Shown: piece by piece, positions 2,712-30,334 of the stretch
Layout of the letters: each line of letters begins with the position of its first letter
Position numbering within the stretch: position 1 is the stretch's first letter
Virus record (IMG/VR): IMGVR_UViG_3300003690_000039
Location: 1,087 to 32,639 of that record
Length of the DNA stretch: 31,553 bases
Reading direction: 5' to 3' (one strand)
DNA from: a virus
Translations under genes and position numbers: made by a program
Notes under the pieces: model-generated
Told to the model about the DNA's origin: nothing
The model's input: the letters and a program-made list of their open reading frames with translations, nothing else
Databases searched by the model: none

Positions 2712-3374
2712 GTGATCGGCGGAATCAATCAATACTACCCGACTCCCCCAGAGGCTGTCTTGCCTCTCTTGCACTGGTTCTACCGGCGGCGGGTAGACGC
2801 TCTGGGCGATGTCGTCGATCCAGCAGCAGGCATGGGCGCCCTGCCACTGTGGCTCAGTCCCCTGGGAGCACACTGGCACGTCTACGATATCGACGAACGC
2901 TTCCGCGAGCCTCTCGAGCAGGTCCCTGGCGTAAAGTCGGTGAGCATTCAGGACAGCATCTCGAGGCTCTGGCCACCAGACAGCCACGTCGTCGCCAACC
3001 CACCCTACGGGCGTGAGCTCCTCAGGTTCGTCCACCGCATCGAGGAACACTGCCGGTACTACCATAGCTTCGGGGCCGTGCTCACGAGAGTCACCTGGTG
3101 GGGTGAGGGTGACCGTGGCGCCGTCTACAGTCCAGACGTCTTGCTCTGGCTCGAGGGCAGGCTTTCGTTTACTGGGGACGGACACTCGGATACCTCTTCT
3201 CACTGCTGGGCCATCTGGCTACCACAACCCAGTGATAGCACACTCATCGAGTGGGTGCCCAAGGGTAAGCCAACAGTCGAGCAGCAGAAGGAGCACCGGG
3301 CGATGCTCGGTATCCCAGACCGCCAGATAGAGCTTTTCGAGGAGGATAGCGATGAACATGCGACAGATCTTTGA
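2712..3374 (+). CDS. DNA N6-adenine methyltransferase
   Basis: This 220-residue protein is predicted to transfer a methyl group from S-adenosylmethionine to adenine N6 in DNA. It carries YYPTPPEAV (8-16), the cofactor loop DPAAGMGAL (36-44), YDID (58-61) and the catalytic motif IV NPPYG (96-100). An aromatic HCWAIWLP segment near 164 is typical of small phage methyltransferases. The length fits solitary phage enzymes without a restriction partner. GTG 2712 is the only plausible start: a TAG lies in frame at 2691, and the next Met (residue 41) is inside the cofactor loop. It overlaps the next gene by 23 bases. A likely role is protecting phage DNA from restriction or marking it for regulation; the target sequence is unknown. 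Confidence 0.87.
   Translation: MIGGINQYYPTPPEAVLPLLHWFYRRRVDALGDVVDPAAGMGALPLWLSPLGAHWHVYDIDERFREPLEQVPGVKSVSIQDSISRLWPPDSHVVANPPYGRELLRFVHRIEEHCRYYHSFGAVLTRVTWWGEGDRGAVYSPDVLLWLEGRLSFTGDGHSDTSSHCWAIWLPQPSDSTLIEWVPKGKPTVEQQKEHRAMLGIPDRQIELFEEDSDEHATDL
2732..2761 (-). promoter_or_regulatory. Candidate sigma70-type promoter for the leftward operon
   Basis: Read on the minus strand, AAGACA (reverse complement of 2756-2761) and TAGTAT (reverse complement of 2732-2737) are separated by 18 bases and match the sigma70 consensus at four positions each. Transcription would begin near 2724 and give a leader of about 27 bases before ATG 2697. The match is moderate and lies inside the methyltransferase coding region. 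Confidence 0.3.
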
Positions 3375-4278
3375 GCGTGCGTCCAGGGGCCATGATACTA
3401 TCGAGGTTGGCGCCTCGCGCTGGCCAGTGCCTGTGTCGGTGGCCCACCTGTGTACACCTGCTGCAACCCTGTCGACGCTTCACGGTCTCGAGCTAGGAGG
3501 TGATCAGTGCCCATGTGGACACCCGATAGAGGCATCCTCCCTATGTCCAGCGTGTAGGCGACCATACCAGACCCCTTGCTGCGCTGAGGACTGCACCGAA
3601 TGGGTGCAGCCCGAGGACCGTGGGCGTGGCGGCTGGTACATACCGCCGAGCCAGTGCTCCACATGTAGGGCCAAGGAAGAGAGGTCGCTCCGAGAGAGCC
3701 GCCTATGCTACGTCCCGAGGAGGCTAAAGGAGGCTGCGGCCGACTACGAGCGTCGCGATGGCCGTGAAGCAGCCGACCAGGCGCTCTATGATTGGCTCAA
3801 CGGCAACCCCGAGGACTCGATATGGCTCTCAGGCCCCCGAAAGAGCGGTAAATCCACCGCCGCAGCCCGTGCAGTCATCAAGATGGTCATGGGAGAGCGC
3901 TCCAAGAGCCTCATGTGGCTGGAATATGAGGACTTTGTAACCGCCTGCAAGCGGTGCTACCTCGATGACGGCGCCAAACAGTGGAAAATCCTCGATAAGG
4001 CCATGCAATGTGAGCTTTTGGTCTTCGATGACGTCTTTCCGCTCGTCAGGACGACCCCAGACGGCAGGATCTTGGGTGTAGAGCGCCTGAGCGCCCACGG
4101 GGCGCAGACATTGAGCGACATGCTGCGGAAAAGGCTGCATAACGGCCGCCCAACGGTGTTTACCTCGGTGCATACGGCCGAACGAGCGCTCGGGCACCTG
4201 GGAGAGCACGTTTTGAGTTGGTGGGAAGGGGTTGGCAGCAGTGCTGCGATTGAGGGGCCTAAGTGCGCTGGGAGGTGA
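3352..4278 (+). CDS. DnaC/IstB-like AAA+ ATPase with N-terminal zinc-binding cysteines
   Basis: This 308-residue protein combines an N-terminal cysteine-rich part with an AAA+ ATPase. Cysteine pairs at CPCG (53-56), CPAC (65-68), CCAEDC (76-81) and CSTC (102-105) can bind two zinc ions. The ATPase has Walker A GPRKSGKST (161-169), Walker B LLVFDDV (222-228) and a sensor-like TVFTSVHT strand (268-275). This layout is that of phage DnaC-type helicase loaders, though a transposition-type IstB ATPase is structurally similar. No helicase is in the window, so a host or out-of-window helicase would be the partner. The start ATG 3352 follows a strong GAGGAGG site and lies inside the methyltransferase gene. 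The final codons overlap the next gene by 16 bases. Confidence 0.8.
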   Translation: MNMRQIFERASRGHDTIEVGASRWPVPVSVAHLCTPAATLSTLHGLELGGDQCPCGHPIEASSLCPACRRPYQTPCCAEDCTEWVQPEDRGRGGWYIPPSQCSTCRAKEERSLRESRLCYVPRRLKEAAADYERRDGREAADQALYDWLNGNPEDSIWLSGPRKSGKSTAAARAVIKMVMGERSKSLMWLEYEDFVTACKRCYLDDGAKQWKILDKAMQCELLVFDDVFPLVRTTPDGRILGVERLSAHGAQTLSDMLRKRLHNGRPTVFTSVHTAERALGHLGEHVLSWWEGVGSSAAIEGPKCAGR

Positions 4279-4768
4279 GGGGTAGGAATGACCCGCAGTG
4301 TCGCGAGCTGGCCGATCGGCACTATAATCGGCAGAAGATCGGTGCGCCGGGCTTCGTTCCGCCGGGCAGGTGCTGCGTTCTGTACGCGGAAACGCTCACG
4401 GGCCGCGCCTTCTGGGTCACCTCGTGGCCGTATGCCGAGTATGTTAAGCACGAGTGGGGGGGGCATGGGTGTGCTCTGCCTTCAGAAATGAGGGCGCCGG
4501 GCTGTCTTCCGAGCTCATCACCGAGGCCGTGGCGGCCACGCGCTTTGTGTTTGGCGAGCCGCCCGACCTCGGCTTCATCACATTCGTTGACCGTGGGAAG
4601 ACAAGGGCGAAGGCGAACCCTGGATACTGCTACCAGATGGCCGGATGGGTGCCATGCGGGCGCACAAAGACCAAGCGGCTTTACGCGCTGCAACTACTCC
4701 CATCTGCGATGCCGCAACCGTCACCACCAATCGGCGGACAACTTGGACTGCTGGAGACGACCGGATGA
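4263..4768 (+). pseudogene. Mom-like GNAT-fold DNA-modification protein, frameshifted at a G8 run
   Basis: Two frames together make one plausible 168-residue protein. Frame one (GTG 4263, preceded by GAGGGG) encodes residues 1-67, including ADRHYNRQKIGAPGFVPPGR. After the run of eight G (4456-4463) the sense continues in the -1 frame with WVCSAFRNEGAGLSSELI and, further on, NPGYCYQMAGW. These blocks resemble phage proteins of the Mom/GNAT-like group linked to adenine hypermodification; the family match is from memory. The rejoined frame stops at 4766-4768 in an ATGA overlap with the next gene, as intact neighbours do, whereas the unshifted frame runs 7 bases past that start. The break could be a homopolymer miscount, a true mutation or programmed -1 slippage on G GGG GGG (4457-4463). 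No clear stimulatory pseudoknot is seen downstream. Confidence 0.6.
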
Positions 4769-5043
4769 AAAGTAGAGAAGGCGCCCTCACCCTGGGCTCA
4801 TACGTCCAGACGCTCCGCATCGAGCGCGGATTCAGCCTCCGCGAGCTCTCCAGGCGTGCTCAGATCAGCCTCTCGACGCTCTGTAGGCTCGAAAACGATG
4901 TCTACGTCCCCAGCGTGCAGAAGAGCCTCGATGCGCTCGACAAGCTCTGGCTGGCGCTCGGTGGGGACATGAACCAGATGCTGCAGCTGTCGCGCAGGTG
5001 TCCGTTGTGCGGGGGCGGGGGAGTGCTCAGTGGGGGGGCGTAG
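4765..5043 (+). CDS. XRE-family helix-turn-helix regulator with C-terminal CPLC motif
   Basis: This 92-residue protein has a classic XRE fold at about 10-70. The recognition region SLRELSRRAQISLSTLCRLE occupies residues 24-43, and a helix with LDALDKLWLALGG follows. It probably binds operator DNA as a dimer. The tail contains CPLCGGGG (79-86), a single cysteine pair that could form half a zinc site in a dimer. ATG 4765 is chosen because it sits in an ATGA overlap with the preceding stop, has GGAG upstream and starts the conserved domain; an open frame extends upstream but only antisense-like sequence is gained. It overlaps the nuclease gene by 14 bases. Whether it regulates this operon or the leader region is unknown. 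Confidence 0.78.
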   Translation: MKSREGALTLGSYVQTLRIERGFSLRELSRRAQISLSTLCRLENDVYVPSVQKSLDALDKLWLALGGDMNQMLQLSRRCPLCGGGGVLSGGA

Positions 5044-5410
5044 CAGCAGGCAGAAGGGCAAGCGTGGCGAGCGCGAGGCCGTCCGCCTCTTCACCGATCG
5101 CGGCTACCAGGCCAGGCGCGGGGACAGCCAGTCTAGAGGAGCTCGTGAAGCGGATGTCGAGGACACGCAGTTCTGGGTCGAGGTCAAGCGAGGCAAACGC
5201 TGCCCAGTGCGACGCGCCATCGTGCAGGCCGCAGGCGATACGGATGGCCGTCTGCCCATCGTCTTGTGGCGTGACGATCGCTCAGACTGGCGAATCGACA
5301 TGGCTGCTGATACCTTCTTTGCAATACTGGCATCTTGCGGACCCTCCGACTGGGTCTTACCGTACGAGCCAACGCAGGAGGAACTCGATGGCGAACAAGA
5401 CGAAGAGTAA
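5030..5410 (+). CDS. PDDEXK-fold nuclease, Holliday-junction-resolvase-like
   Basis: This 126-residue protein has the layout of archaeal Hjc-like and phage VRR/PDDEXK nucleases. RQKGKRGEREAVRLF (7-21) carries the leading glutamate E15, EAD (40-42) supplies the acidic metal ligand, and WVEVKRGKR (49-57) supplies the E51-V-K53 core. A PIVLWRDDRSDW strand (76-87) follows. It is predicted to cut branched DNA, for instance before packaging. A restriction-type or repair nuclease of the same fold cannot be excluded. The start GTG 5030 is inside a G-rich stretch overlapping the regulator's end; no earlier start in frame is supported. Its own tail is acidic and overlaps the next gene by 23 bases. Confidence 0.7.
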   Translation: MGGRSSRQKGKRGEREAVRLFTDRGYQARRGDSQSRGAREADVEDTQFWVEVKRGKRCPVRRAIVQAAGDTDGRLPIVLWRDDRSDWRIDMAADTFFAILASCGPSDWVLPYEPTQEELDGEQDEE

Positions 5411-5663
5411 GCCCAACGCTGAGAAGAAGCCCGACCCGGCCCCCGCGCCCAAGAGGCAGACACTCGACCTCAGCTGCCTCGGCGCCAAGGCCGAGAAGCA
5501 GGCCGGGTACTTCCTCGAGCAGGCCAGCACCAAACGGCAGGTCGACCCCGAGAAGATCCTCGCCGCGTGCCTCAACTACTGCGCGACGCTGGCTCAGCGA
5601 CGCCACGGCATCCACTTCGTCCTGCAGTCCATCGAGCAGACGACGCGATGCAAAATCAGATAA
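5388..5663 (+). CDS. Small hypothetical protein (91 aa)
   Basis: This 91-residue protein is preceded by an excellent AGGAGGA site 5 bases before ATG 5388. The first 25 residues are Lys/Pro/Ala-rich and likely disordered. The remainder is predicted helical (KAEKQAGYFLEQASTKRQ and a cysteine-containing helix at 58-72). I recognise no family. The position between the nuclease and the packaging genes, and the overlaps on both sides (23 and 16 bases), place it in the same transcription unit. A longer open frame begins at 4998, but only this start has a ribosome site and protein-like composition. Confidence 0.7.
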   Translation: MANKTKSKPNAEKKPDPAPAPKRQTLDLSCLGAKAEKQAGYFLEQASTKRQVDPEKILAACLNYCATLAQRRHGIHFVLQSIEQTTRCKIR

Positions 5664-6094
5664 GGTACGACCCGGCCCCAGGGGCACCGTTCCAGTGGCT
5701 GCTCGACTCGCTCATGGGCGCCGTCTCGGTGTGCGTGGACCAGGACCCGTCGCTGACAGAGGTCGAGCGCGCCGTAGGGCTGCAGATCACAGCACTCCGT
5801 GACACGCAAGAGGCGCTCAAGATGCTCGGAGAGCGGCGCCTCGGTAAGCGCGAGAAGGCCGCGAAGCCCCTGTTGCTGGTGTATCTGCACAAGATCCGAG
5901 GCAATACGCTCTCGCGCACCTGGGAGAAGGGTCTGGCTACGGGCTCCAGGGTGTCTGATAAGATGGACCTGCTCGCGAAGGACACCACCCGGTTCATGGC
6001 CGCACTCAACCTTGTCACCCATCCCAATACGCCGTTCAAGGCCATCGGTATGACGGTGAGGAAGTACAAGAACAATGTCGAAGAGCTCCACTGA
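5648..6094 (+). CDS. Hypothetical protein (148 aa) upstream of terminase
   Basis: This 148-residue protein is predicted to be mostly helical and soluble. Residues about 60-105 are basic (LGERRLGKREKAAKPLLLVY and onwards), which would suit nucleic-acid or protein contact. No motif of a known family is evident. The chosen start is ATG 5648, which overlaps the preceding stop by 16 bases; the ribosome site is weak, so coupling to the upstream gene is likely. Its 3' end overlaps the small terminase gene by 20 bases. The neighbourhood suggests a role in late DNA metabolism or packaging, but nothing in the sequence proves it. Confidence 0.62.
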   Translation: MQNQIRYDPAPGAPFQWLLDSLMGAVSVCVDQDPSLTEVERAVGLQITALRDTQEALKMLGERRLGKREKAAKPLLLVYLHKIRGNTLSRTWEKGLATGSRVSDKMDLLAKDTTRFMAALNLVTHPNTPFKAIGMTVRKYKNNVEELH

Positions 6095-6614
6095 TAAGCC
6101 CAGAGATGAGATGAACCCGTCCCTCGAGGTCTGCATCAAGGTCGTGCAGCCGCACCTGGAGACCATCGTGTCGATGCTCAGGGTGGGACACACGCGCACC
6201 GCCACCGCCAAGGCGGTCGGCATCAAGCCCTGGCAACTCTTCGCGGTCACACGCCACGGCAAGGTCAATCGTGGACGCTGCCAGGACATGCTGGCCGAGA
6301 TGATGCGCGCCGAGGGGATGGCGCAAGTGCATCTCGAAGCACTGGTCATCGAGGACGCGAAGGTCAACGTCAAGACCGCGCAGTGGCTGCTCGCCCGTCG
6401 CTTCCGTCTCAAGGAGCGGCACGAGGCCGACATCGATACCCTGCGCAAGCTCGACTACAACCGCCTGGCGCAAGAAGAGATGAAGCTCAAGATGCTCGAA
6501 GAGAAGCACCGCCTGCTGACCGAGAAGAGCGGCAAAGACCTCGACGGTGAGGGCTGGCGCGATCTTATGAACGAGAGCGAAGACACGTCTGACCGCATCA
6601 AGTCGATTCATTGA
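6075..6614 (+). CDS. terS: Terminase small subunit (putative)
   Basis: This 179-residue protein is called mainly from position, as it overlaps the large terminase gene by four bases (TTGA), and from architecture. Residues about 28-70 form a helix-turn-helix-like segment (MLRVGHTRTATAKAVGIKPW with a second helix) as in DNA-recognition domains of small terminases. Residues about 95-165 form long charged helices suited to ring oligomerisation. The acidic C-terminus may contact the motor subunit. The start is ATG 6075 with GAGGAAG about 10 bases upstream; ATG 6111 is an alternative with a weaker site. Small terminases diverge strongly, so the assignment rests on context. Confidence 0.68.
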   Translation: MSKSSTDKPRDEMNPSLEVCIKVVQPHLETIVSMLRVGHTRTATAKAVGIKPWQLFAVTRHGKVNRGRCQDMLAEMMRAEGMAQVHLEALVIEDAKVNVKTAQWLLARRFRLKERHEADIDTLRKLDYNRLAQEEMKLKMLEEKHRLLTEKSGKDLDGEGWRDLMNESEDTSDRIKSIH

Positions 6615-8200
6615 ACGCGGCGCAGCTCAAGGAGCTACGCCGGTGCGCCTGGGACTTCCCGTACTTCTGCCAGAAGTACCTGAAGATACTCGACAAGCGA
6701 AAGAAGCTCGTCACACTCAGGCCCAACCCCATCCAGGCTGACTTCGCTGAAGTGATGGACGCGCAGCCGTTCACCTACGTGCTCAAGAGCAGAAAGGTGG
6801 GGATCAGCACCTTCGTCGCCGCCAAGTTCTTCTGGAAGGCGCTCTTCCGGCCCGGCTTCGAGGTCGCTGTAATCGCTCACAGCGAGAAGGCGGTGCTCGA
6901 AAACATCGCGCCCATTTACCACCGCTTCTACGAGCACCTGCCGAAGTTCATGCGCGTGCCTCTGAAGCATCAGACGGTCCATAAGCTGCACTTCATCCAC
7001 GACTCGCGCATCATCATCGGCACGGCGAACAGTGAAGGGGCGCGCGGTGGCACGCCAGTGGCGCTGCACTGCAGTGAGTTCAGCCGCTACGAGAACCCCG
7101 ACGACACCATGGCGGCGCTCTTCAACTCCCTTGGTCACGACCCCGAGGTGGTGTTGGAGACGACGGCCAACGGAATGAACTTCGCCTACTCCATGTGGAA
7201 CGACTCGGAGCTAGAGTACCACCGCGTCTTCTACCCCTGGACCGATGACCCGGAGTGCATCTCGAGCAAGGTGCCACGCAACATGCCGCCTGAGATCGAA
7301 GAGATGGTCGAGGAGTTCGAGCTGACCGAGGGGCAGAGCAACTGGTTCGTCGACACCTATCGCCTCAAGTGCAACTCGAAACTCCGCATCCTGCATCAGG
7401 AGTATCCCATCATCGCGGAGCAGAGCTTTGTCTCCACGGGTGGGCGCTTCTTCCACTGCTCCTTCCCAGGTGGAGACCCCGAGCCGGGGTACGTCGCGCA
7501 CGCCAAGCCTGAAAAGTGGCACACATACGTGATGGGCGTGGACACGGCTTCCGGCGCGGAGAAGGGGGACTTCTCGGCCTTTTGTGTAATCGATGTCACC
7601 GACCCGAAGAAAGTTGTGACCGTGGCGAGCTACTACGAGCGCGTGATGCCGCGCTCATTTGGTAAGCGCGTGCTGGCCGAGGCGCACAAGTGGAGAGCGC
7701 TGGTGGTGCCCGAGGCCAATAGCTATGGGCTGACCATCATCGAGGAGCTCAGGCTTTGTAACTACCCCTACATCTACCACAAGCTCGACCAGAGGGATGG
7801 CGAGAACACCTGGACCAAGAAGTACGGCTTCTGGACCGACCGCGCCTCGCGCCCGCTCATGCTCAGTAAGCTCTACGAGTTGCTCTACGACAATCACTTC
7901 GACGCCCGCGATCGTAGGTTCCAGTGCGAAGCCAATCACTTCGTCTACTCGCAGCGCGGAAAGCCAGAGGCGCAGAGCGGGCATCACGATGACATGGTCA
8001 TTGCCACCGCACTCGCGGTCTACGGCTCTCACCAGGCGGCTGTGGTGCGTGAAGATCGCATGAACGAGAGGCCTGAGAATATACGCGAGAGCTTGCAGTT
8101 CGAGCACAGCACAGGCAGAAACTACACTGACGAATGGGACGACTGGTACGAGTCAGACGTCAACACGTCACACCCTCTAGCGATGGAGGGGTCAAACTAG
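6611..8200 (+). CDS. terL: Terminase large subunit (packaging ATPase-nuclease)
   Basis: This 529-residue protein is the DNA-packaging motor. The ATPase domain has an alternative Walker A KSRKVGIST (59-67) and a Walker B strand ending HCSEF with E156 as likely catalytic base, then ETTANG (183-188) as coupling motif. The RNase H-like nuclease domain has GVDTASGAEKGDFSAF (309-324, metal ligand D311), VVPEANSYG (365-373, E368) and HHDDMVIATALA (458-469, D460/D461). The length is normal for the family. The start is TTG 6611 in a TTGA overlap with the small subunit, and the next Met is at residue 49, so TTG is required for a complete domain. There is no obvious ribosome site, implying translational coupling. 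Confidence 0.95.
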   Translation: MNAAQLKELRRCAWDFPYFCQKYLKILDKRKKLVTLRPNPIQADFAEVMDAQPFTYVLKSRKVGISTFVAAKFFWKALFRPGFEVAVIAHSEKAVLENIAPIYHRFYEHLPKFMRVPLKHQTVHKLHFIHDSRIIIGTANSEGARGGTPVALHCSEFSRYENPDDTMAALFNSLGHDPEVVLETTANGMNFAYSMWNDSELEYHRVFYPWTDDPECISSKVPRNMPPEIEEMVEEFELTEGQSNWFVDTYRLKCNSKLRILHQEYPIIAEQSFVSTGGRFFHCSFPGGDPEPGYVAHAKPEKWHTYVMGVDTASGAEKGDFSAFCVIDVTDPKKVVTVASYYERVMPRSFGKRVLAEAHKWRALVVPEANSYGLTIIEELRLCNYPYIYHKLDQRDGENTWTKKYGFWTDRASRPLMLSKLYELLYDNHFDARDRRFQCEANHFVYSQRGKPEAQSGHHDDMVIATALAVYGSHQAAVVREDRMNERPENIRESLQFEHSTGRNYTDEWDDWYESDVNTSHPLAMEGSN

Positions 8201-23647: not shown

Positions 23648-26600
23648 ATGCCCATGACCTACATGCAGCTCGCGAAAGAGCTAGCGGGCCAGGGCTACAC
23701 CAAGGAGGAGTTCGCTGCGGTGCTCAAGGAGCTGACCGGCGAGGACTACTACGCCGCCGACCCCAGCACCTACATCGAGGGTGACTTCACCACCGGCATG
23801 GAGGAGGGCACCACCCCGTTGCAATCGGGTCCGCCCATGGAAGAGGCTGGCCAGCGCAGCGTTACCGCAGAGCGCATCGAGCCGCGCCTTCAGTCGGTGA
23901 ATCCGACCTTCGACCTTCCCGCCGTGATGCAGATGCAGCAGGAGGAGGAGCGTCGCCGGGTCGAGGAGTGGCGAGCGCGGCAGATCGCGGCAGAAGAGCC
24001 GTCGCCTACGGAGTTCACATATCCGAGCGCGAACGTGGATCCCGCCACTGGAGAGCCGCGTTCGGTGATGACCCGCAGAGAGATCGCAACGTATCCGACT
24101 CACATGCAGCCATACCTGCTCGAGAGGTTCGGCTACCAGACGGTGGACCCTGGCGTGCGCCCCATGTCTACGCAGGAGCTCGCAGCGGCATCTGGGCGCC
24201 CCCCAGAGACGCTGGACTACCCAGAAGAGTACGCGCACACGCTGGCGGCCACAGAGGCGCTAGGGCAAGACCCTGAGAGCGTCTACAGGGAAGAGACTGC
24301 GCCCGAGCCAGAGCCCGAGCCAATGACGCCTGCGATGCCCATGCGCTACAACATCCCCCATCCCGCCACGTTCGAGGGCCCAGCCAAGCCCTCGCTGGAG
24401 GGGGAGTTGCCCTCTACGCTGGCTGAATACATGGAGGGCAAGCGCCTCATCGCTGGAGAGATAAGGGACGAGCCAGAGCCGATGCCTTCAGCCGTGGCTG
24501 ACTACATGGAGGGCAAGCGCCTGGTGGCTGGCCGGCTTGAAGACATCCCGTCAGCCGACTACCGGGGCGAAGACTACGTGACTCGCCTGGATGAGCCCGC
24601 CCCCGCCAGCGTTATGGCACCTATCGCTGAGATGAAGCGCAAGGGCGAGATCCGAGAGGAGTTCTACGAGAAGGCAGAGCGGCCCCCTGTTGGCCCCAGG
24701 GATCTGCTCAAGGCAGCGTTGGACCCGTTCGACTTCGCCGGGATGGTGATGGACAACAAGTCCCTCGAGGTCTGGAGCGAGGCCATGTGGGAGCGGTTCA
24801 TCCAGCTCTTCGAGGTGCCCGTTGAGAAGGCCATTGAGGGCGACCTGAGGCTTCAGCGGCTGCTCCGCCCAGAGGAGTGGGACAGCGACGACGACTTCGG
24901 GGTGTTCCTGCCGGGAATGTACGGCGACAACAAGCTGACCGCCGGGGATAGGCGCAACCTTGAGCGCCTATGGGACATACAAGACGCCGAGGTGATGGAG
25001 GCGATCGACGAGACCATGGTCAGCACCGAGGCCAAGGCCGCGCTATATCCAATCCTCACAAACGCCCGCAAGAGCGTGGGCAACCTGGCCAATGGACTCT
25101 GGGACATGGGCCTCTCGATCGTCGGCGGCAACATCCCCGACGCGGTCTGGCGCGAGATGGACTCCTCAGAGCGCAAGAGGATGCTCGAGGAGCAGGCCCA
25201 CGAGGCCATAGACGAGATGTTCGGCAAGGGGATGGCATCGTTCGTCATCACCGTACTGGCCAACCCCGGCGCAGCGGTGGAGGTCTTCCCGGCTGAGATC
25301 TCATTCATCGCCTACCGCCCCATGAAGGCGATGGCCAGGCCAGCCGGCAGGAAGTTCGTCGAGTCGATGGACCTCTTTCTGGAGTGGCAGGGCGCCAAGG
25401 GACCCAGAAGGGCAGCGGTGGCGACCGGCATCAAGCGGGCAGCGTCAGCCACCCAGCGCGCATTTGCAGACCCTGCCGCCCACTACACAAAGGGCGGGGA
25501 GGAGTTCCTTCAGAAGGCGGGGCCAGAGGCCATACTTGCCGAAGAGGCCATCACAGAGGGCTTCGATGTGGTCGCCAGATCGGTGGCGGAGGAGACGGCA
25601 GCGGGTCGCCCACCCGAGGTTATCGAGACGCCGCTCAGGCCCAGGTACGAGGGCGGCGGCCCCGTGAGGCCAGTGGCCGATGTCCCGAGCCCAAAGCATC
25701 CCACCACGTTTACGGCCAGGGCGACGGCTGGCGAGCCGCTGGTGCGTAAGGCAGACATCGCAGCCCAGTTGAAAGAGTGGCGCGGACACGAGGCGTGGCT
25801 TCTGGAGCAGCCCGAAGGGACAACCCTTACGTCGTCAGGATATAGGGAGTTCGTAGCGCCCGGTGAGGTGCCGATGGCAAGCCGGCCCATGAAGGGGTTT
25901 GCGCCAGAAGCCAGGATTGGCCTTACGCTGGAGCAGGTGCGAGCGGAGATATGGAAGCTCGAAGCGTTGCTTGAGGAGAGGGCGCCTTTGACCGTTCTTC
26001 CAGAGGCCGAGGTGCTACCGCTCGGTGCCGCTGAGAGGACAACGATACCGGAGCCCGTGCGCGTAGCAGAGCGGAAGAGGCTCGCAGACCCCACAGCCGA
26101 AGAGGCGCTCAGTAGCGCCGAGGGGATGATCGCGGAGATTGAGGGCGTCCAGGTGTGGGAGGGGCCGATAGCCGCGTTGCGAGAGGTCAAGGAGCAGGTA
26201 AGGCTTGCCGACCTGGAGCTCGCGGAGTTGCGCCAGTCCACCACGGAGCGGTTCACAAACCGCATGATCGACGAACTCGAGACGGTGCGCGGCGCCCTGG
26301 TGGAGTACGCCGACAACATCCTCCAGGACATTGCCAGCGAGGGTGACGCCGCCCTTATGAAAGGGGCGAAAGAGGTGATGGGGTCCGAGGCGTCCCCCCA
26401 GGTGCCCTCATCGGCTTGGGCGTGGGATAGGTACGAAGGGCGCACGGCCGACGTGGCCGCAGCCAAAGCACGCACCCCGTCCAAGACAGATCCGGTTGAG
26501 GCGGTGAGGGCGGCCATTGAGGAGCTCCAGGCGCGCAGGCCCGAACCCACCCCCGAAGCCCCGACCCCACGCGACACGATCTGGGCTCATCAACGCCGCG

Positions 26601-29600
26601 CCGCCGCACTCGCGGACGGACCAACCGGGTCTGGCGGCACGGTGTCCTTCCACGTGAGCGCCAAGGGCGGCATGAGGGCGGCAGCGGGCAAGAGGAAGGT
26701 CTCGACCGAGGCTCTCGAGGCCGGTGTGCTCGACTCAGTGGCCGGGCTGTCGGAGACGAGTTGGCCGCACACACCCAAGCGGCAGCTCGGCTACGAGTTC
26801 GAGGTTCACACGGTGCCCATCTCTTCGCAGACCGGCGGTTCGCTGGGCAAGTCGAGGAAGGTGGCGACGGCGAAGAGAGACCCGAAGCCGACCATCCTAC
26901 CGGACGAGGCGATGGGCATGATCCGAGACCTCACTGAGATCTTCGGTGAGGAGGGCGCCATCCTTCGCGGCATCGTCACAGAGGAGGGCCTGGCGCAGCA
27001 GGTTATCGCCGCCGTAGACATCGAGCTCGTCAACCAGTTCTCGAGCCCCAAGGGCCGGGCGACAGTGGTCGAGACGGTTGTAGAGACCGCGAACCAGTCC
27101 TTCTGGGGCGGCAAGATGCCGCGCAAGGTCAAGAAGGATATGGCGAAGACGGTTGCCGACACGCTCGAGGACGCAGCGGGCAGGCATCGCGGCGAGGGGG
27201 GCACATCCTCTGTCTTCAACCCGCTGTTTGAGCTACAGGGACCAGACGGCAGGATCGTCACCGTCAACGGACTGCGCGCACTGGCAAAGAAGCAGAAGGC
27301 AGACCCGGTCTTCCGGGCGAAGATCCAGAAGGAGGCGCTCGACTACGTGAGCCGGCGCATTGGTGCCCAGGCAAAGGCCAGGGGAGTGCAGGACGGCGTG
27401 ATGAGCGCCATCGTGAGAGACAGCGAGATCGTCGGCAAGACCGCGTACGCCATGTCGAGCGCGGCTGACCGGGCCACGATGCGCGCCCAGGCGTTGAAGG
27501 GGTCGAAGGAGGTACAGAAGCACACGTCTCTCAAGAACGAGCTGAACAACGCGAAGGCGAAGACGGGGAAAGAGCGGGACACCGCAAAGATCGACAGCCT
27601 GACCAAGAAGCTCGACGAGATGGAGGGGACAACGACCACGCCGGGGGTCGTCGACACCTACCTGAATGGGCTCATCGACAAGTATAGGCGCACTGGTGAC
27701 ATGCCATCGACGTGGCTCTTCGGTGACGCCCTCGAGCACGCATGGAACCGATTGCAAACAAGTCGCCCCGGCGCTCCACTGTCGGGGCTCTGGATGCTCA
27801 GAGAGCACCTCAGACCGCGCAACGCAACCAAGGTGTTCGGGTCTGGATTGACCGCCGACCAGGCACTCATGTCCTCATACTTCGGGTTCACAAAGCCATC
27901 GGCACAGGCGCAGGCCGCCTTCCGTCGCGCCGCCGCAAAGCCCTTTACCGACATCACCACCGCCATGCCTGACAGGTGGATGAGCAAGCCGCTCTACAAG
28001 GTCTCCGAGCTCATGGCGCGGGACGCTGGTGTGCTCCCTGCGATGGGGTGGCTCAAGGGGATCGAGAAGTACTGGCGCGCAGTCAAGCTCGGCAAGGTGG
28101 CAGGCAACCCCGGCTCGCATGTGATGGCCCTGGGGGCCAACACGATCGTGCAGATGCAGAGGCGTGGGGATATGTTCATCGCCGCCAAGGCCGCAGGCAG
28201 CCTGGTTGACTACATGCGCTTCAAGGCGGGGCTGAAGACGCTGGTCGATCCACAGATCTACCGCAGCCTGGAGCACAGTGGGCGCATATCTGGCTCGATG
28301 GTCAAGGGTGAGATCGACGCCAACATGCGCCGCTGGCTCGAAGACCCAGAGTTCGCCACCAGGGACTGGGCTGGCGACTTTATGACCGCTGGCATCGGGC
28401 GTCGGGTCTATGACTGGTGGGACACCATGTTCAAGATCGAGGACGGGGTAAACCAGTGGCACCGGCGCATGAAGGAGTGGGATAGCCTCCCGGCTGGCAC
28501 CGCAAAGAACCCCATCGAGTACCACTTCCCGGTCGGCAGGTCGCTCGAGATAAAGGCGCAGAAGATCAACGGCAAGATGGTGGTCGACGGCCGCGTGCTG
28601 ACCGACGCGCAGTTCCGGCACATGATGGGCCGTGCAGCCATGGAGCCGGGCGCGAGGTGGGCGGTCGACTTCAAGGTCGTGCCGCTGCTGGCGATATTCA
28701 AGCGCAACTTCCCGCTGCTCGACATGATGCTGAGTGACTTCTCCACCTGGCGCATCGTGACCGACACCTTCCCCTTCTTCAAAGATGGCATCTGGGGTGA
28801 GATTATGTTGGGCGCCACCCCTCGCGGCTACGTGAGCCACCTGCCTCTGCGGCTCAAGCGTGCGGGTGAGATGGCCACCACCAACATGTTGAGGACCATG
28901 ACGACCGCTGCCCTTTCGCAGCGCGTGAGCGGCGAAGACCATCAGATGATGCGCGCCATGCTCAATAGATATGGGGCTGCGAGCCCCGTCTACTCCATCT
29001 CCGCGACCGCCGACCCGCGTGTCTTCAGCGTTATGAACGGCACCTCATTCTCCGTCCACGAGAGCGTGGAGCGGTGGCTCCGTACCGCCGAGGCGCTTGC
29101 GTATACGGCGCCCTCGAGGGGGCACTACGGGGAAACCATCCAGGAGTGGCTCGGCTTTGTGAAGCCAGACGCCACCATAGAGCTCCCAGGCGCCAAGAGG
29201 GGAGATGAGCCAGACACTGAGATGATGCTGCTGCTGTCGGATGATGAGATGGCCAAGCTGTCTCCAGCGAAGCGGCGCCACATTGAGGCATCGAAGGCCT
29301 ACTGGATAGACAACGCGAAGACCGGCGGCATGGGCAGAAAGGCGTCCATGGGGCTCTTCTACATGGAAGGCAACATCTACATAAACATGTTCCTCGACTT
29401 CCTCTTTGAGACCCGCAAGGAAGCGGAGATGGGCCCGAAGCTGGCCGTCGCTGATACCCTCATCCGTTCGTTGGCGCCCAGGTGGGCTGCGGCTGCCATG
29501 TACTACGGCCTCGAGACCAAGCGAGAGGGGGACATCGAGAAGTACCGCGATGCGATGGAGGTGCTCCAGAAGGAGGAGGACCGCATTGAGGCCATCCCAG

Positions 29601-30334
29601 AGGACGAGCGCACGCAGAAGGAGAGGGACAGCCTCAAGAGGATCCTCGACCCAGCGAGAAGGAAGGATCTCCAGACGAAGTACCTGTCCTTCGCCAAGGA
29701 TGTGGAGGCGCTCACCAGAGAGGAGTACAGAGCCGAGGCCATCTTGGGTGCGCTCGATCCGTCCCTGGCCGAAGGGCCGCTGCGGCGGGCAGCACAACGC
29801 ACCCTGCACTCGCCCGTCTTTGTGGCGGCGTGGCACCGCTTCAACACCGACCCCAAGAGCAAGAGGAAGGTGAAGGAGCGGGAGGGCATGAAGGCCGTGG
29901 GGTTCCAGTTCAAGGGCACCGCTATCAATGGGCTCATCGACCGCGCAACCCGGCAGTTCGGGCGCGGAGCGGCAGACGCCGAGGCGATCCATCGCACGGC
30001 CACCCGCGCTGGCGACAGGCCGGTCTTTGAGGGTAGTACGGCCCACGAGTACGCCTATGAGGTGGGCGAGAAGATCAAGTCCCTCACGCAGCTCTACCGT
30101 GAGATCCTGCTCGAAGAGGCAGAGGGGATGCAGGGCCGCTGGGACGAGATGTTCGGCAAGCTCGAGCTCAAGGCGCAACAGAAGGGTCAAGAGGACGCTC
30201 CGTTCGGCCTCGACGCGGCGTCAATCCCCACCGACCCGGCGAGTCCAGACAGAGAGATACCGCTGGAGGGGTGGACCAAAGAGCCCGACATCAGGAAGAG
30301 GTTCGAGAAGCCCGAGCAATACTACCCCTTCTAG
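23648..30334 (+). CDS. Giant internal virion/polyvalent protein (2228 aa)
   Basis: This gene takes up a fifth of the window. Residues 1-330 are acidic and Pro-rich, with two 25-residue-spaced copies of an EYMEGKRLIAG-like unit (from residues 259 and 284). Residues about 500-1330 are helical with Pro/Glu-rich linkers. Residues about 1400-1800 look most conserved: WRAVKLGKVAGNPGSHVMAL near 1475, YDWWDTMFKIEDGVNQW near 1588 and FKRNFPLLDMMLSDFSTW near 1683. These resemble domains of large phage 'polyvalent' ejected proteins, a comparison from memory. No transglycosylase, protease or polymerase motif was found by eye. The T7 equivalent, gp16, is about 1300 residues, so this one is unusually long. 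ATG 23648 is four bases after the previous stop. Confidence 0.65.
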   Translation: MPMTYMQLAKELAGQGYTKEEFAAVLKELTGEDYYAADPSTYIEGDFTTGMEEGTTPLQSGPPMEEAGQRSVTAERIEPRLQSVNPTFDLPAVMQMQQEEERRRVEEWRARQIAAEEPSPTEFTYPSANVDPATGEPRSVMTRREIATYPTHMQPYLLERFGYQTVDPGVRPMSTQELAAASGRPPETLDYPEEYAHTLAATEALGQDPESVYREETAPEPEPEPMTPAMPMRYNIPHPATFEGPAKPSLEGELPSTLAEYMEGKRLIAGEIRDEPEPMPSAVADYMEGKRLVAGRLEDIPSADYRGEDYVTRLDEPAPASVMAPIAEMKRKGEIREEFYEKAERPPVGPRDLLKAALDPFDFAGMVMDNKSLEVWSEAMWERFIQLFEVPVEKAIEGDLRLQRLLRPEEWDSDDDFGVFLPGMYGDNKLTAGDRRNLERLWDIQDAEVMEAIDETMVSTEAKAALYPILTNARKSVGNLANGLWDMGLSIVGGNIPDAVWREMDSSERKRMLEEQAHEAIDEMFGKGMASFVITVLANPGAAVEVFPAEISFIAYRPMKAMARPAGRKFVESMDLFLEWQGAKGPRRAAVATGIKRAASATQRAFADPAAHYTKGGEEFLQKAGPEAILAEEAITEGFDVVARSVAEETAAGRPPEVIETPLRPRYEGGGPVRPVADVPSPKHPTTFTARATAGEPLVRKADIAAQLKEWRGHEAWLLEQPEGTTLTSSGYREFVAPGEVPMASRPMKGFAPEARIGLTLEQVRAEIWKLEALLEERAPLTVLPEAEVLPLGAAERTTIPEPVRVAERKRLADPTAEEALSSAEGMIAEIEGVQVWEGPIAALREVKEQVRLADLELAELRQSTTERFTNRMIDELETVRGALVEYADNILQDIASEGDAALMKGAKEVMGSEASPQVPSSAWAWDRYEGRTADVAAAKARTPSKTDPVEAVRAAIEELQARRPEPTPEAPTPRDTIWAHQRRAAALADGPTGSGGTVSFHVSAKGGMRAAAGKRKVSTEALEAGVLDSVAGLSETSWPHTPKRQLGYEFEVHTVPISSQTGGSLGKSRKVATAKRDPKPTILPDEAMGMIRDLTEIFGEEGAILRGIVTEEGLAQQVIAAVDIELVNQFSSPKGRATVVETVVETANQSFWGGKMPRKVKKDMAKTVADTLEDAAGRHRGEGGTSSVFNPLFELQGPDGRIVTVNGLRALAKKQKADPVFRAKIQKEALDYVSRRIGAQAKARGVQDGVMSAIVRDSEIVGKTAYAMSSAADRATMRAQALKGSKEVQKHTSLKNELNNAKAKTGKERDTAKIDSLTKKLDEMEGTTTTPGVVDTYLNGLIDKYRRTGDMPSTWLFGDALEHAWNRLQTSRPGAPLSGLWMLREHLRPRNATKVFGSGLTADQALMSSYFGFTKPSAQAQAAFRRAAAKPFTDITTAMPDRWMSKPLYKVSELMARDAGVLPAMGWLKGIEKYWRAVKLGKVAGNPGSHVMALGANTIVQMQRRGDMFIAAKAAGSLVDYMRFKAGLKTLVDPQIYRSLEHSGRISGSMVKGEIDANMRRWLEDPEFATRDWAGDFMTAGIGRRVYDWWDTMFKIEDGVNQWHRRMKEWDSLPAGTAKNPIEYHFPVGRSLEIKAQKINGKMVVDGRVLTDAQFRHMMGRAAMEPGARWAVDFKVVPLLAIFKRNFPLLDMMLSDFSTWRIVTDTFPFFKDGIWGEIMLGATPRGYVSHLPLRLKRAGEMATTNMLRTMTTAALSQRVSGEDHQMMRAMLNRYGAASPVYSISATADPRVFSVMNGTSFSVHESVERWLRTAEALAYTAPSRGHYGETIQEWLGFVKPDATIELPGAKRGDEPDTEMMLLLSDDEMAKLSPAKRRHIEASKAYWIDNAKTGGMGRKASMGLFYMEGNIYINMFLDFLFETRKEAEMGPKLAVADTLIRSLAPRWAAAAMYYGLETKREGDIEKYRDAMEVLQKEEDRIEAIPEDERTQKERDSLKRILDPARRKDLQTKYLSFAKDVEALTREEYRAEAILGALDPSLAEGPLRRAAQRTLHSPVFVAAWHRFNTDPKSKRKVKEREGMKAVGFQFKGTAINGLIDRATRQFGRGAADAEAIHRTATRAGDRPVFEGSTAHEYAYEVGEKIKSLTQLYREILLEEAEGMQGRWDEMFGKLELKAQQKGQEDAPFGLDAASIPTDPASPDREIPLEGWTKEPDIRKRFEKPEQYYPF
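24422..24535 (+). repeat. Two-copy 75-bp-spaced repeat inside the giant gene
   Basis: Copies begin at 24422 and 24497 and encode AEYMEGKRLIAGE and ADYMEGKRLVAGR. Twenty bases (TACATGGAGGGCAAGCGCCT) are identical. The offset is exactly 25 codons, and both copies are followed by acidic residues and proline. This looks like an internal duplication of a short binding motif in the disordered N-terminal part of the protein. Confidence 0.8.

Follow-up and report, generated by a model that had tools for sequence, protein, structure and literature searches.

A putative Mom-like gene with a frame break at a run of eight G, probably inserted beside the helicase-loader gene of a phage

Mom enzymes transfer an acyl-type group to the N6 of adenine in DNA (PMC7824862), and the resulting modification shields phage DNA from restriction (PMC6483171). 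In the joined genes of phages any base is allowed at the positions of the XXXYYYZ heptamer where -1 frameshifting takes place (PMC10885494). In GeneTack, a study of frame transitions in prokaryotes, programmed frameshifts are required to have a conserved site, and singleton transitions validated by homology are put down mainly to sequencing error, and otherwise to recent indels (PMC3711429).

Both subjects meet in the stretch of DNA analyzed here (31,553 nucleotides, positions 1,087 to 32,639 of the IMG/VR record IMGVR_UViG_3300003690_000039, henceforth the window). A preliminary description placed in it a Mom-like DNA-modification gene split by a slippery heptamer. Like the tail assembly chaperones of phages, which use programmed -1 frameshifting, this gene has a slippery-type heptamer in phase; unlike them, its site is not conserved, it lacks a short zero-frame product, and it is not a tail gene. 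The frame break is very likely not programmed but an error of one base in the length of a homopolymer, in a recently acquired cargo gene, and this reading accounts for all the observations.

One gene split at a run of eight G

The gene is on the plus strand, as are the DnaC-like, HTH, and nuclease genes beside it. Its N-terminal half (4263–4463; GTG start, 67 codons) begins within the 3′ end of a DnaC-like helicase-loader gene (3352–4278; phrog_50, E = 3.2e-10). This half carries the conserved block DRHYNRQK...FVPPGRC, is alignable with 80 viral homologues, and matches positions 2–59 of the 157 of phrog_24928 (E = 3.9e-16). The C-terminal half (4463–4768, with the stop TGA at 4766–4768) lies in the -1 frame, begins with AWVCSAFRNEGAGLSSEL, and contains RNEGAG, which resembles the acyl-CoA loop of GNAT proteins, together with conserved S, D, and Y residues; its segment 4463–4765 matches positions 62–151 of the same family (E = 2.6e-25). 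The two matches adjoin and together span nearly the full length of the profile, with the switch of frame inside a run of exactly eight G (4456–4463). Hence, the halves form one protein split at the run, as had been proposed. The proposal that only the rejoined frame enters an ATGA overlap with its neighbor also holds, the stop at 4766–4768 overlapping the ATG at 4765 of an HTH gene (Cro/CI-type, Pfam HTH_31/HTH_3; 4765–5043). The HTH gene overlaps at 5030–5043 with a RusA-/PDDEXK-like nuclease gene (5030–5410; phrog_244, E = 6.7e-12). No second full copy of the Mom-like gene was found in the window.

With the GTG at 4263 setting the frame, the codons at the break are TGG GGG GGG CAT, which place a zero-frame X XXY YYZ heptamer, G GGG GGG, at 4457–4463, in agreement with the preliminary description. 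The truncated product predicted there is wrong, because the unshifted zero frame continues (4464–4775) to a TGA at 4773–4775 and yields 170 aa with a foreign C-terminus. As written, the frame would thus fuse the N-lobe to unrelated residues and leave the product without the acyl-CoA loop or the conserved S, D, and Y, so that a working enzyme is not expected, save by leakage at the run.

The run is the longest homopolymer of the window, and it is ordinary for the base composition: the longest run of G or C reached at least eight in 403 of 500 Markov simulations. Ten other XXXYYYZ heptamers lie in frame in genes of the window, including a second G GGG GGG in the nuclease gene (5032–5038), where the frame does not switch. 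Together, the simulations and this count leave no argument from the rarity of the run.

Relation to Mom and to other GNAT proteins

The family phrog_24928, which carries no functional annotation, includes proteins of Salinibacter phage M8CR30-2, Paenibacillus phage Lily, and Micromonospora phage pMLP1. Phage homologues are 45–57% identical to the window protein, and the members of the family, in contrast to it, are encoded by uninterrupted genes. A structure was predicted from 40 sequences for a homologue (L003) instead of the window protein itself (pLDDT 91.4, pTM 0.87). Foldseek alone returned only weak GNAT matches for this model, none below E = 0.001. VIA-align, applied as a second look at the Foldseek candidates, put Mom of phage Mu first among solved structures (8bv8; 3.0 Å over 133 residues) at Z = 11.9, a score equaled by AAC(6′)-Ib. 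The latter and other GNAT acetyltransferases thus appear to share the fold of the window's family, and we infer from the phage setting and the HY/S arrangement that Mom is favored over drug acetylation.

Four residues (H20, Y21, R75, and S83) are invariant in the alignment of homologues (A4). Mu Mom has an HY motif near its N-terminus, as does the window's family, and a profile–profile alignment whose score is itself nonsignificant pairs S83 with Mu S124, the position that is mutated in the inactive protein of 8bv8. The window protein differs from Mu Mom in being about 70 residues shorter, and no overlapping com-type gene was noticed beside its gene.

Sequence searches do not place it in the Mom family. 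Two homologues (L003 and L006) matched neither PF25680 nor phrog_1384 at E values up to 10, in a search where Mu Mom itself matches PF25680 at 2.4e-75. Pfam searches with each half and with homologues did not match the Mom family, and a search of PDB sequences with the family profile gave no significant match. Given the fold match and the invariant residues, and the lack of a PF25680 or phrog_1384 match, the product is best described as a GNAT-fold protein that probably acts as Mom does, while standing outside the Mom family. The name Mom-like is therefore retained for the fold, with compatible conserved residues, and is dropped as a statement of sequence-family membership. A function in DNA modification may be expected from this modeled likeness. 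The analysis keeps its value in connecting phrog_24928, a phage family that is widespread but unnamed, with the Mom fold.

A probable single-gene insertion in a cargo island

Relatives of the window were retrieved via the DnaC-like and terminase genes. The close syntenic ones align with the flanks at about 71–88% nucleotide identity and have no Mom-like gene, their DnaC-like gene leading directly into the HTH gene. In one of them (L200), blastn places window position 4253 at 4902 and window position 4766 at 4900. Because the flanks are contiguous in the relatives, the gene is best read as an insertion in the lineage of the window, of a single gene extending approximately from 4254 to 4765 as judged from blastn and the junction sequences. 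Gain instead of loss would be indicated, since the gene is absent from every relative covering the junction. As judged from these sequences, its absence from close syntenic relatives is a new result, and with relatives lacking the gene no conserved role in the phage group depends on it. The insertion would thus represent recent single-gene cargo, a Mom-like GNAT-fold acyltransferase put at the boundary between the DnaC-like and HTH genes.

A second slot lies on the other side of the HTH gene, between it and the nuclease gene; it is empty in the window, where its equivalent is the gene overlap at 5030–5043, and carries other cargo in relatives, some of it of DNA-modification type. L202 has there QueE-like and QueC-like genes and a gene for a phrog_15826 protein; in L197, L200, and L201 the cargo belongs to the PAPS-reductase family phrog_424; and further relatives also carry genes at this place. 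With two cargo slots flanking the HTH gene, the region is a cargo island and not one exchange point. An island that holds Mom-like, queuosine-pathway-like, or PAPS-reductase-like genes in related phages is also of value.

Two other frames of the window were observed. A single 2228-aa open frame occupies 23648–30334, and PHROG gave no match to it at E = 0.001. Just upstream of the DnaC-like gene, at 2712–3374, lies a DNA methyltransferase-like gene (phrog_799, E = 6.3e-14) with weak similarity to Dam-type adenine methyltransferases, which makes two DNA-modification-type genes close together in the window.

Homologues and the origin of the frame break

Homologues were sought in IMG/VR, first with the rejoined protein and next with an alignment, and also in GTDB genomes; once duplicates were removed, 113 distinct ones span the break site. 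Their protein identity to the window is 50–69% (about 65–69% for the best), so they are not very close. The frame is uninterrupted at the site in all 113, the residues there being W-A-G-A-W in 86, W-P-G-A-W in 18, W-G-G-A-W in four, and single variants in five. The peptide WGGAW of these four is that of the window's rejoined frame. The longest G run at the site is five, and neither a slippery site nor a frame switch was found there in any of the 113. Hence, the slippery site is private to the window. Close alleles were sought in IMG/VR by the DNA pattern across the run, and the phage collection was searched for near matches to the initial 8.2 kb of the window; neither search returned any.

If ribosomes were programmed to shift by -1 at G GGG GGG and gave two proteins, this would be a new use of frameshifting, with two forms of a DNA-modifying enzyme; these homologues speak against it. 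The preliminary description had itself set close uninterrupted homologues against it, and every one that spans the site is uninterrupted, if not very close. Points on its side are the in-phase heptamer, the freedom of bases in phage joined genes noted above, and a hairpin, capped by a GAAA loop, some 14 nt 3′ of the run. This RNA fold appears unremarkable and lends no clear support to a stimulator: the 81-nt downstream stretch, at -35.6 kcal/mol, has a z of -1.46, with 14 of 200 shuffles at least as stable, and the comparable stretch is at least as stable in 14 of the 113 homologues, all of them without the slippery site. The stem also lies over the codons for the conserved A-F-R-N-E-G motif, so that the protein constrains the sequence of the stem. 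Adding to this the zero frame without a nearby stop, which runs into unrelated sequence, and the ten other heptamers in frame, we regard programmed frameshifting as very improbable. Some leaky rescue is nevertheless conceivable, given a slippery run of eight G and a fairly stable downstream hairpin.

Two explanations are left for a non-programmed length error, one of them the miscount that the preliminary description had given as its alternative, with a true run of nine G. The break is confined to the single gene with the eight-base run, as none of the seven flanking genes tested against close relatives (3352–8190) has a net frameshift, a few distant, gap-poor local alignments leaving small offsets that open frames do not support. 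In the first, to which we give about an even chance, the run was undercounted in sequencing or assembly, and the true gene is unbroken and encodes a single protein of full length. This agrees with the run being the window's longest homopolymer, with both halves being conserved right up to it with no other decay, with intact neighboring genes, and with the finding that singletons validated by homology are attributed for the most part to errors of sequencing (PMC3711429). Consensus errors in runs of eight or nine bases are uncommon at good Illumina coverage, which speaks against an undercount. A weakness of the non-programmed reading as a whole is that the gene is missing from the nearest relatives, which offer no closely related allele for nucleotide comparison.

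Mononucleotide runs are prone to slip, and the second explanation, with a probability somewhat short of even, is that slipped strands produced a genuine indel, either in the phage or in a subpopulation, making a null allele of a dispensable new gene that is possibly reversible (phase-variable by run length). The gene being a recent and dispensable insertion fits this, and inactivating changes occur in other homologues: L011 and L150 have in-frame stops, and L115, from an Oscillospiraceae MAG, loses its frame at a C7 run (within 1121–1175, at the FVPPGR motif), about 30 codons upstream of the position of the window's break. Against slippage, the rest of the gene shows no decay, and none of the relatives shows a long run at this place, so the tract is not a conserved phase-variable one. 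Between the two, the undercount is slightly favored. It is improbable, if a little less so than programmed frameshifting, that the run acts in the phage population as a length-variable on/off switch for a newly captured DNA-modification enzyme, set in an island where related phages would have different DNA-modification-type genes.

One further homologue shows another arrangement of the family. In L047 (3001–5367), a Mom-like domain of the phrog_24928 type is in frame with a family A DNA polymerase and 3′-5′ exonuclease domain, in a single open frame of 789 aa, which may be a fusion that occurs naturally or else two genes whose separating stop is missing.
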